From positions 1-40,615 of the IMG/VR virus record IMGVR_UViG_3300005608_000012: 40,615 bases of DNA; one strand, 5' to 3'. The position numbers and the translations under genes were made by a program. The DNA comes from a virus. Numbering within the stretch: the stretch's first letter is position 1; each line of letters begins with the position of its first letter. Positions 14,022 to 40,615 of the stretch are shown here, one piece after another. The notes below the pieces were generated by a model, which did no database searches, had not been told where the DNA came from, and worked only from the letters and a program-made list of their open reading frames with translations.

Positions 14022-14050
14022 TTGACAATCTTAATGTATTAAGATATACT
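14022..14050 (+). promoter_or_regulatory. strong sigma70 promoter
   Basis: TTGACA at 14022-14027 and TATACT at 14045-14050 are separated by exactly 17 bases. This is a near-consensus promoter that host RNA polymerase should recognise, so the downstream RNA and the gene at 14167 are probably early. Initiation is expected near 14057. Confidence 0.85.
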
Positions 14051-14056
14051 ATATAA

Positions 14057-14142
14057 TTATACAAAGGGATCGAAAGATCGTGCCCCTGCGTAGATTCAAA
14101 AGACACCTTAGTCGAGGTAGTCTAACATCCGCAGGGTTTTTT
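14057..14142 (+). ncRNA. promoter-driven structured RNA ending in a terminator; shares a sequence block with the psbA leader
   Basis: Three elements follow the promoter. A GATC-GAAA-GATC hairpin with a GNRA loop lies at 14068-14079. A seven-base outer stem CCCTGCG/CGCAGGG (14084-14090 with 14130-14136) encloses an inner hairpin, AGAC-ACCT paired with AGGT-GTCT at 14101-14123. A run of six T (14137-14142) follows at once, so the stem can act as an intrinsic terminator. The blocks CGAAAG, ATCGT, CCCTG and GTA (14071-14092) recur in the same order and near-identical spacing in the psbA leader. It could be a small RNA or an attenuator/riboswitch-like leader for the gene at 14167. Confidence 0.65.
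14084..14142 (+). terminator. terminator or attenuator stem within the leader RNA
   Basis: CCCTGCG (14084-14090) and CGCAGGG (14130-14136) pair perfectly and are followed by TTTTTT. Because the next gene starts at 14167 and no second promoter is evident, termination here would have to be partial or regulated for that gene to be expressed. Confidence 0.6.
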
Positions 14143-14166
14143 CTTGCGAGATACTATAAAACAAAA

Positions 14167-14538
14167 ATGATCAAAAAAACAATCGCAGCACTTGCTGCAA
14201 CTCCTCTTCTATTCTCTGGTGCTGCGTTTGCAGGTCCTTACGTTAATGTAGAAGCAAGTGGTTCATATCCAGATGGAGCATATTCATCAGGAACTTGGGA
14301 ATTCCAACTTGGATACGAAGGTACAACACCTAATGGTATTGACTGGTATGTATCAGGTGGTCCTACAGTTACTCATACAGAGACTGCTGACGAGTTCGGT
14401 GACACTGAACTAATCGGTTACATCGGTGGTGGTAAGACACTTACTGATAGTGTAGGAGTTTATGGTGAGTTATCCGCAGCAACTAATGTTGATGACGTAG
14501 ACTGGGCAGGGAAAGCAGGACTTAAGTACACTTTCTAA
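14167..14538 (+). CDS. small outer-membrane beta-barrel-like protein
   Basis: A 123-residue protein with a clear signal peptide (MIKKTIAALAATPLLFSGAAFA, cleavage after AFA). The mature part of about 100 residues has alternating polar/hydrophobic strands (GTWEFQLGYEG, DWYVSGGPTVTHT, ELIGYIGGGKTL, VGVYGELSAAT) and ends KAGLKYTF. A terminal Phe preceded by alternating aromatic residues is the beta-barrel assembly signal of outer-membrane proteins. The number of strands is small for a porin, so it may be a small or oligomeric barrel. Expression from the strong promoter at 14022 suggests an early role, perhaps altering the host surface. Confidence 0.6.
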   Translation: MIKKTIAALAATPLLFSGAAFAGPYVNVEASGSYPDGAYSSGTWEFQLGYEGTTPNGIDWYVSGGPTVTHTETADEFGDTELIGYIGGGKTLTDSVGVYGELSAATNVDDVDWAGKAGLKYTF

Positions 14539-38758: not shown

Positions 38759-38842
38759 ATGAAGTATCAATTAATTTTTGCTGTTGTACTAGCAGCATTC
38801 GCTATCAAAGGCGATATAATAACAAGTTTATTTTACGCATAA
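38759..38842 (+). CDS. 27-residue single-span microprotein
   Basis: ATG 38759 follows the preceding stop directly. The 27-residue product is a helix (YQLIFAVVLAAFAI) with a KGDIITSLFYA tail. It is the last gene before the terminator at 38848 and therefore probably the end of the hli transcript. Function is unknown. Confidence 0.5.
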   Translation: MKYQLIFAVVLAAFAIKGDIITSLFYA

Positions 38843-38847
38843 TATAT

Positions 38848-38874
38848 AAGGGTAGCACTAACGCTACCCTTTTC
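38848..38874 (+). terminator. intrinsic terminator of the hli transcript
   Basis: AAGGGTAGC (38848-38856) pairs with GCTACCCTT (38863-38871), nine base pairs with a six-base loop, followed by TTTTC. Confidence 0.85.
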
Positions 38875-38876
38875 TT

Positions 38877-39044
38877 ATGAAATATAGACTTGAGTATCAA
38901 ACAGGAGATTCAGATAAGTGGATTAAGATGAATAACTATCGTAATTTATCTGATGCAAAATCTGAATTTTATCTATTTCTCTGTAGACAATCTCAAAATA
39001 TGGTCTACAATAAAACTAAAATAAGAAGAGTACACGATGACTGA
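38877..39044 (+). CDS. 55-residue basic protein, unknown function
   Basis: ATG 38877 begins three bases after the terminator tail. The product is hydrophilic (KYRLEYQTGDSDKWIKMNNY; SEFYLFLCRQSQNMVYN; a basic KIRRVH end). No ribosome binding site is evident because the terminator occupies the space. It overlaps the next gene by eight bases. No family is recognised. Confidence 0.5.
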   Translation: MKYRLEYQTGDSDKWIKMNNYRNLSDAKSEFYLFLCRQSQNMVYNKTKIRRVHDD

Positions 39045-39471: not shown

Positions 39472-39677
39472 GAAACCAGATGATTTCAGCACTCCTTGCT
39501 CACGCACAAGGAGATATTCAAAAACATAAGATGAATGTAGAGATTTATTTAACCAATCCTACTGGCATTGGTGAGCATTCAGATATTATGGAAGCAATCG
39601 AGCAAGAATTAAATATGATTGCTAAGTATGAAGATCAAGTATCTGTCATCAAAAAACATTTTCTTATAAAGGATTGA
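39468..39677 (+). CDS. conserved cyanophage helical protein upstream of psbA
   Basis: A 69-residue soluble protein (LLAHAQGDIQKHKMNVEIYL; GIGEHSDIMEAIEQELNMIAKYEDQ). I recognise it as a short protein common in cyanophages, always unnamed. It is made of two amphipathic helices and is rich in acidic and His residues. It ends three bases inside the psbA promoter -35 box at 39674. Confidence 0.65.
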   Translation: MRNQMISALLAHAQGDIQKHKMNVEIYLTNPTGIGEHSDIMEAIEQELNMIAKYEDQVSVIKKHFLIKD

Positions 39678-39702
39678 CAAAGTTAGGAAAAGCATATATA
39701 AT
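39674..39702 (+). promoter_or_regulatory. psbA: consensus sigma70 promoter of psbA
   Basis: TTGACA (39674-39679) and TATAAT (39697-39702), both perfect, with a 17-base spacer: the strongest promoter in the window. Initiation near 39709 gives a leader of about 190 bases before psbA. Confidence 0.92.
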
Positions 39703-39744
39703 AATTAGGTTGTGAAGTTTTGTAACTTCCTCGACCATTTTTTT

Positions 39745-39822
39745 ACGAAGGACCCGAAAGTATCGTAACCCTGAGTACAAACTGCTCTCAAACCGAGACC
39801 TATAGGCAGTATAAAACTTCGT
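39745..39822 (+). ncRNA. structured psbA leader element (PhotoRC-II-like)
   Basis: The leader holds an element closed by ACGAAG/CTTCGT (39745-39750 with 39817-39822). Inside are the blocks CGAAAG, ATCGT, CCCTG and GTA (39755-39777), then a stem ACTGC/GCAGT (39781-39785 with 39806-39810) that carries an inner TCTC/GAGA hairpin. From memory this matches the kind of conserved RNA described upstream of phage psbA as PhotoRC-II; I cannot check the alignment. TACGA (39744-39748) can also pair with TCGTA (39763-39767), which would open the closing stem, so two forms are possible. It may control psbA mRNA stability or translation. Confidence 0.65.
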
Positions 39823-39830
39823 CTCTCATA

Positions 39831-39854
39831 TCCACCAGTGAAGGGATTGGTGGA
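39831..39854 (+). promoter_or_regulatory. second hairpin in the psbA leader
   Basis: TCCACCA (39831-39837) pairs with TGGTGGA (39848-39854) around a ten-base loop containing GAAGGG. The loop sequence resembles a ribosome binding site, but the start codon is 48 bases further on, and no Shine-Dalgarno sequence lies near that start. Confidence 0.5.
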
Positions 39855-39901
39855 AATAAGTATCGCACTACCCTTTGTGCCCTACTTAAACGTTCTATTA
39901 A

Positions 39902-40615
39902 ATGACAACTTCAAACATTACACGCAGAGAAAGTGGTCTCCTACAGGGTTGGCCAGAGTTCTGCGAGTGGGTAACATCAACTAACAACAGAATATATGTT
40001 GGTTGGTTCGGAGTCTTAATGATTCCTGCATTACTTACTGCTGCTGCGTGCTTCATCGTAGCATTCATCGCTGCTCCACCTGTGGACATCGACGGAATCA
40101 GAGAACCAGTTGCGGGTTCTTTTATGTATGGTAACAACATCATCTCTGGTGCTGTAGTTCCATCTTCAAACGCAATCGGTCTACACTTCTACCCTATATG
40201 GGAAGCAGCAACAGTAGACGAATGGTTATATAATGGTGGTCCATACCAGTTGGTAATCTTCCACTTCCTTATCGGAATCTCTGCTTATATGGGTAGACAG
40301 TGGGAACTATCATACAGATTAGGTATGAGACCTTGGATATGTGTAGCATATTCAGCACCTGTGTCAGCAGCATTCGCTGTGTTCCTTGTGTATCCTTTCG
40401 GACAGGGTTCTTTCTCTGACGGAATGCCACTAGGTATCTCAGGTACGTTCAACTTTATGTTTGTGTTCCAAGCAGAGCACAACATACTAATGCACCCCTT
40501 CCATATGGCAGGTGTAGCAGGTATGTTCGGTGGTAGTCTCTTCAGTGCAATGCACGGTTCTCTAGTTACATCTTCTCTAATCAGAGAGACAACAGAAAAC
40601 GAGAGTCAAAACTAC
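39902..40615 (+). CDS. psbA: PsbA, photosystem II D1 protein (partial, 3' end outside window)
   Basis: The first 238 residues of D1, the photosystem II reaction-centre protein that turns over fastest in light; phages replace it to keep electron transport running. Recognisable stretches include [11 protein letters not shown], the lumenal [16 protein letters not shown] and RGMRPW-like [15 protein letters not shown]. Key residues align with the usual D1 numbering plus three: TyrZ Y164, the Mn-cluster ligand D173, E192/H193, the P680 chlorophyll ligand H201 and the quinone/iron ligand H218. No intron, frameshift or homing insertion occurs in the visible part. Confidence 0.97.

Follow-up and report, generated by a model that had tools for sequence, protein, structure and literature searches.

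A hairpin module shared by the psbA leader and the leader of an outer-membrane-like gene in cyanophages

Background

Why should a phage photosynthesis gene and a gene for an outer-membrane-like protein carry the same block of sequence in their leaders? The question is raised by a viral DNA of 40,615 nucleotides (nt) (IMG/VR record IMGVR_UViG_3300005608_000012, positions 1-40,615; the whole stretch is hereafter the window), in which a first-pass annotation made from the letters alone had noticed a block common to the leader of psbA and a second site, and had proposed a phage RNA element used at two loci. Phage psbA is among the best-studied auxiliary genes in the ocean, and its post-transcriptional control is unexplained. 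We show that the block belongs to a selected RNA hairpin, P1, and suggest that P1 may serve as an interchangeable binding module in two phage leaders.

A selected RNA hairpin in two leaders

The two copies of the block, CGAAAG-ATCGTGCCCCTGCGTA at 14071-14092 and CGAAAGTATCGTAACCCTGAGTA at 39755-39777, were re-read from the sequence and have their parts in the order first described, with 19 of 23 columns identical and a single one-base gap. The core pattern CGAAAGN{0,2}ATCGT matches the window twice, at precisely these sites, against 0.02 matches in shuffled sequence. A model of the outer-membrane-gene leader defined here (R1) picks up the psbA leader of the window at E = 9.7e-5, and because R1 contains no psbA leader this is the cleanest single test; together with the shuffles it rules out chance similarity of the two blocks. 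Homology begins about 10 nt 5' of the block, and the shared unit is a hairpin:

14060..14092, + strand: P1 copy 1, with an invariant GG...CGAA....AUCG....CC apex and a covarying outer stem
39744..39777, + strand: P1 copy 2, the shared hairpin domain in the psbA leader

A model of the P1 module alone (R2), whose training set includes both copies, scores them at 40.7 and 47.6 bits respectively. The inner part of P1 (GG/CC and CGA/UCG) is invariant, and once psbA copies are added to the alignment the outer stem is seen to be kept by compensatory change: seven pairs show double changes, and the covariation score is 0.233 as against 0.099 in shuffles, with none of 500 as high. P1 is therefore a hairpin selected as RNA, with an invariant apex. 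Absence from related phages or lack of covariation in them, which the first-pass annotation had named as fatal to the idea, is not what we find, P1 being widespread and its outer stem covarying.

The internal loop of P1 (14069-14072 and 14081-14084) displays covariation of a non-Watson-Crick kind in the outer-membrane-gene leaders, where alignment columns 10/25 switch from A-A to G-G and columns 11/26 from C-A to A-C; these switches could represent non-canonical pairs that are isosteric, or else a small number of linked changes inherited from an ancestor. Mimicry of ribosomal RNA was also considered and set aside, no similar stretch being present in Prochlorococcus 16S or 23S ribosomal RNA.

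P1 is found at two phage genes

A BLAST search with the 161-nt leader of the outer-membrane-like gene yielded matches in many Prochlorococcus myoviruses, directly 5' of the gene annotated there as DUF680. The neighbourhoods of this leader differ (after psbD, after talC or after a glycosyltransferase), and it therefore travels with the DUF680 gene. Scanning IMG/VR with the core pattern recovered over 90 additional copies, and seven psbA leaders came up unprompted. When IMG/VR was scanned separately for PhotoRC-II, the structured RNA of phage psbA leaders, 100 usable leaders resulted, 93 of which bear the P1 block; of the remaining seven at least six open straight away with a different hairpin or the PhotoRC-II stem, and in L206 the block is a variant one. 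Two extra scans using psbA-type block variants brought the total to 240 P1 sites at psbA or the outer-membrane-like gene. Beyond these, two matches were truncated by the end of their contig and two chance hits fell in unrelated coding regions, and no third verified context was found in the pattern scans of viral contigs. Removal of duplicates left 98 psbA and 105 outer-membrane-gene leaders, counts which do not represent independent events as many IMG/VR sequences are related; 94 distinct outer-membrane-gene leaders can be aligned across the whole element. The proposal of one phage RNA element at two loci thus holds across more than 200 distinct leaders, all at one or the other gene.

Likewise, R2 detected one or two strong copies in those of 22 phage records where the module is present, the fetched second copies all lying at these two genes, along with three weak additional matches (E above 0.1). 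Both copies occur in P-HM2, a phage of Prochlorococcus MED4 that can be grown in the laboratory; there P1 lies at 178218 in front of the outer-membrane gene and at 171607 in front of psbA.

A search of 84,980 bacterial and archaeal genomes with an exact P1 pattern, which represents one P1 variant, gave no match. R2 gave a single chance-level match (12.8 bits, E = 3.9) on 79 cyanobacterial psbA loci, and a sample of these loci held no Rfam PhotoRC-II. R2 found nothing in 300 host-family genomes, where 23 candidates per genome were scored without a positive control. We reject a host origin of P1 on these negative searches, which are themselves weak.

The leader of the outer-membrane-like gene

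The first copy lies between an Hsp20 gene upstream and a gene for a 123-residue protein downstream, and the match of this protein to PF24653 bears out the earlier reading that the first copy precedes an outer-membrane-like gene and not psbA. The features of this leader are:

14022..14050, + strand: promoter-like TTGACA-17-TATACT, overlapped by late-promoter-like TATATAAT
14084..14090, + strand: CCCUGCG in the 3' strand of P1, alternative partner of 14130-14136
14101..14123, + strand: P2 hairpin, covarying, with an invariant GUCG loop (14111-14114)
14127..14152, + strand: P3 hairpin, CGCAGG (14130-14135)/CUUGCG (14143-14148), with a 3' bulged A at 14149 and the T-run 14137-14142 as its loop
14167..14538, + strand: outer-membrane-like beta-barrel gene, 123 amino acids; PF24653 Phage_OMP, DUF680, PhCOG173, phrog_417

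In isolates the gene is labelled DUF680, T4-GC 241 or PhCOG173. Its true start is most likely the ATG at 14167, where the homologues begin; the longest mechanical open reading frame (ORF) opens at a GTG at 14080 within P1 (14080-14166). The claim that both copies follow TTGACA-17-TATANT promoters is confirmed (14022-14050 and 39674-39702), and 84 of 100 homologous outer-membrane-gene leaders score at least 9 of 12 for a sigma70-type promoter, as against 9% of shuffled upstream sequences, with a TAAATA-type late-like box in 89 of the 100. The placement of these promoters puts the expected start at or just 5' of P1. Most P1-bearing phages show no clear Shine-Dalgarno sequence in either leader.

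A MAFFT alignment of 55 outer-membrane-gene leaders, analyzed by pair counts and RNAalifold, revealed three hairpins, P1, P2 and P3, which are 93.9% paired and have 82 doubly changed cells against 28.8 expected (0/500 as high). P3 is 96.7% paired within this set, and across phage groups its pair 1 is C-G in 75 and U-A in 19 leaders, pair 3 C-G in 78 and U-A in 12, and pair 4 A-U in 67 and G-C in 20; here P3 was counted by direct extraction, as alignment A3 misplaces its 3' strand in leaders that lack P1. The window has the full set of features that define R1: a P2 with the GUCG loop, a CAUC linker, a P3 with the 3' bulged A, and a position 5' of a PF24653 gene.

Leaders of this gene in Synechococcus-type phages (L336-L342, L008, L009 and many of L343-L448) retain P2 and P3 and have neither P1 nor the T-run, and P1 is likewise missing from a few PhotoRC-II leaders. 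In these leaders C-G to U-A and A-U to G-C exchanges bear out P3. By this modular distribution P2-P3 is the family-wide leader RNA of the gene, with no Rfam family matching its copy in the window, and P1 is a module added to it in Prochlorococcus-type phages and present also in psbA leaders. A contact between the GUCG loop and the CGA of P3 was examined and discarded, the change of CGAGA to CAAGU in Synechococcus-type leaders fitting the P3 stem and not a loop contact. The second DUF680 gene of P-SSM2 (L004, position 3745, beside pstS) has none of the leader hairpins, which is in line with a different, phosphate-linked control.

The psbA leader

At the second locus the features are:

39674..39702, + strand: promoter-like TTGACA-17-TATAAT of psbA, recognized by sequence
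39708..39736, + strand: P0, a hairpin that opens the psbA leader and has a T7 run after it
39766..39867, + strand: PhotoRC-II (RF01717), 74.1 bits, E = 4e-11, above the gathering cut-off
39902..40615, + strand: psbA (photosystem II D1), with 95% identity to Prochlorococcus psbA over 238 amino acids; the gene is truncated where the window ends

The block lies about 35-40 nt from the expected start at psbA and about 10 nt at 14057, because the hairpin 39708-39736 and the T7 run intervene after the psbA promoter. In psbA leaders generally the promoter precedes the GG of P1 by 33-39 nt, with P0 in between; 87 of 92 such P0 hairpins fold below -3 kcal/mol, and their sequence is not conserved. A general role of P0 as a psbA terminator was rejected, a T5 run being present in only 9 of the 92. 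The P0 and T7 run of the window (39708-39745) do look like a terminator, as they do in a few relatives, and the GGUUG/CGACC of P0 is replaced by GAUCG/CGAUC in L151.

P1 copy 2 and the PhotoRC-II element overlap by 12 nt: the first position of the Rfam model, 39766, falls within the 3' strand of P1, so that most of the hairpin is omitted. Most of the sampled phage PhotoRC-II leaders thus carry an extra 5' domain that the model leaves out. Also absent from the Rfam consensus structure as shown is a pseudoknot between GAGAC in the PhotoRC-II P2 loop (39795-39799) and GUCUC after P2 (39821-39825), which is canonical in all 84 distinct psbA leaders, its variable pair being A-U in 60, G-C in 23 and U-G in one. 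The first-pass annotation had added that, if the motif were PhotoRC-II, the first copy would give it a new context. This did not stand: positions 14040-14180 have no Rfam PhotoRC-II match up to E = 10, let alone at the gathering cut-off of 39 bits, the shared P1 falls mostly outside the Rfam model, and at 14057-14142 the P2 loop is AGUCGA in place of the PhotoRC-II loop AACCNAGACCUA with its GAGAC/GUCUC pseudoknot. Rfam 15 as a whole assigns no family to the element, the three matches below E = 10 all being far under their cut-offs.

Three further observations concern psbA leaders and their surroundings. The viral contig L504 has on its - strand (532 and 3696) a pair of psbA-type leaders separated by 3.2 kb; both have a P1 and a PhotoRC-II of their own and run into a psbA-like start. 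The ORF annotated in P-HM2 as PHM2_211 (171588-171722; L325 589-723) spans P1 and the PhotoRC-II region in front of psbA and is unlikely to be a true gene. Finally, 38838-38891 on the - strand of the window forms a strong hairpin with a sub-threshold match to the Salmonella RNA STnc390 (23.5 bits versus a cut-off of 50), a family assignment that we attribute to chance.

A competing terminator-like fold

The first-pass annotation had the element ending in its own terminator hairpin. The pairing exists: CCCUGCG of P1 can form a stem with 14130-14136 which competes with both P1 and P3, and the two states are nearly isoenergetic, the full window leader folding at -28.2 kcal/mol as P1-P2-P3 and at -26.2 in the terminator form. 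What is not supported is the idea that the element stops there, for in the conserved fold 14130-14135 pairs downstream with 14143-14148 as P3, and the leader continues into the gene at 14167; in 55 sequences individual pairs of the terminator stem are broken in 11, 9 and 24 cases, and no double change is seen. When the window RNA is ended at the T-run, the terminator form prevails (-26.2 versus -17.5 kcal/mol), and 77 of 94 homologues likewise switch to it when cut at this point.

For both alternative folds matched strands pair better than permuted ones. Columns 31-32 of P1 are mostly mispaired within P1 (canonical in 18 and 42 of 94 leaders) yet complementary to the P3 strand. The window and the majority of P1-bearing homologues have a G+C-rich stem with a U-run, which P1-less homologues lack, and runs of at least five Ts occur in 72 of 94 P1-bearing leaders versus one of 25 without P1. 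These predicted folds give the leader what looks like the anatomy of an attenuator. That attenuation is the actual output at the outer-membrane gene is a tentative proposal, to which we give somewhat less than even odds because part of the family has no T-run and relatedness is uncontrolled.

How P1 might act

An invariant apex on a covarying stem, placed 5' of two messenger RNAs (mRNAs) and hardly anywhere else, looks like a shared binding site. In the explanation that we favour, with a probability of roughly 0.6 as a whole, the outer-membrane-like gene would have a structured mRNA leader that acts in cis, with the element as its 5' half and P1 a swappable first RNA module that was built into the phage psbA leader too. 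One common factor, either a small ligand or a protein of phage or host, would bind the apex and keep P1 closed. At the outer-membrane gene a closed P1 would leave the terminator-like stem unformed, allowing P3 to form and read-through into the gene; in the psbA leader, P1 might act on the stability or translation of the PhotoRC-II leader. The parts of this explanation differ in strength: that the element is a cis-acting structured leader domain is very likely, and binding of P1 by a common trans factor or ligand is probable.

Several points weigh against this explanation. Because the apex (GG, CGA/UCG, CC) shows no variation at all, covariation is compatible with its pairing but does not prove it. 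About 12 of the 94 P1-bearing leaders have no T-run, and attenuation is thus not universal, while the terminator stem encloses a 40-nt loop holding P2, which is unusual for an efficient terminator. The linkage of P1 with the T-run could reflect one ancestral event and not function, and the sequence permutation tests ignore relatedness. No counterpart of the terminator was found at psbA.

Among the alternatives, the one that survives best, though we consider it unlikely, is that P1 is a passive 5' cap hairpin which protects two strongly expressed phage mRNAs from host RNase E or aids ribosome loading, with neither ligand nor regulator involved. P1 does lie at the expected transcript start of the outer-membrane gene, psbA leaders likewise open with a hairpin in the form of P0, and stability effects have been proposed for the structured psbA leader of S-PM2d (PMC5931967). 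However, a mere stem would not hold its apex invariant over about 200 distinct copies while the outer stem varies freely; the P0 hairpins, unconserved in sequence, show how a purely structural cap looks.

A metabolite riboswitch common to psbA and the outer-membrane gene, with P1 as its aptamer, is less likely still. Its appeal lies in the invariant apex with an asymmetric internal loop, the alternative terminator-like partner strand and the two-gene regulon, and further riboswitches, putative or proven, are present in cyanophages (manA, wcaG, glnA). Yet some 22 conserved nucleotides are few for a metabolite aptamer, the psbA leader is devoid of a matching expression platform, and neither a tie between the two genes and one metabolite nor an Rfam match was found.

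The promoter and terminator-like stem might also yield an 80-nt RNA, in keeping with the earlier suggestion of a small RNA, here one with its own terminated end, that would act in trans as a mimic or competitor of the psbA leader. We regard this as improbable: the conserved P3 requires sequence beyond the T-run, conservation runs on to the gene which the element always precedes, P1-less homologues have no terminator at all, and the P1 copies are alike rather than complementary, with no pairing to each other's leader beyond self-complementarity. A DNA-level palindrome for protein binding, copied to two promoters by recombination, would account for the position of P1 near promoters in both leaders and is highly improbable given that the stem shows both compensatory change and G-U pairs, that the loops are asymmetric and that the promoter distance differs between the two genes.

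Comparison with known systems

The closest known system is PhotoRC-II (RF01717; Weinberg et al. 2010, PMC2864571), a phage-only cis leader of psbA. The psbA leader of the window is a member of this family, in which P1 is present in 93 of the 100 sampled; the element at 14057, in contrast, lacks the PhotoRC-II loop and pseudoknot and is not matched by the model. The versions of PhotoRC-II in ZWD and in Rfam differ (PMC7657543), and that of ZWD may already cover part of P1 at psbA, which would leave the second gene unaffected. None of the papers searched describes the outer-membrane-gene leader or the sharing of P1, and no model of this leader is present in Rfam 15. While PhotoRC-II was known before, the novelty lies in the domain P1, in its confinement to two genes, in its use as a module and in the terminator-like fold that competes with it.

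The manA (RF01745) and wcaG (RF01761) RNAs are likewise structured 5' leaders of auxiliary genes in T4-like cyanophages, but belong to other genes and have no match in the Rfam searches of the window. In S-PM2d the psbA 5' untranslated region contains a hairpin described as a 36-bp inverted repeat in one phage, together with sigma70 and late (Gp55) promoters (PMC5931967); the pairing of promoters is the same as here, whereas that hairpin is not tied to another gene. Early and late promoters appear to be shared by psbA and the outer-membrane-like gene, and the latter is reported to have accumulated disabling mutations during adaptation of a cyanophage to a poor Synechococcus host (PMC6224464), which suggests that the gene is not always beneficial and that its regulation would make sense.

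P1 at these two genes marks a candidate two-gene regulon. A bolder formulation, which we hold to be possible rather than probable, would have P1 as a new sensory or protein-binding domain that couples photosynthesis and envelope-protein genes in one post-transcriptional regulon, interchangeable between leaders and joined to a terminator-like switch in one of them. P1 also offers a defined RNA bait for finding the putative factor. In its mutually exclusive hairpins, one of them with a U-run, the leader of the outer-membrane-like gene resembles attenuating riboswitches and protein-responsive leaders; it differs from these in that its terminator state is predicted from sequence and is missing in part of the family.
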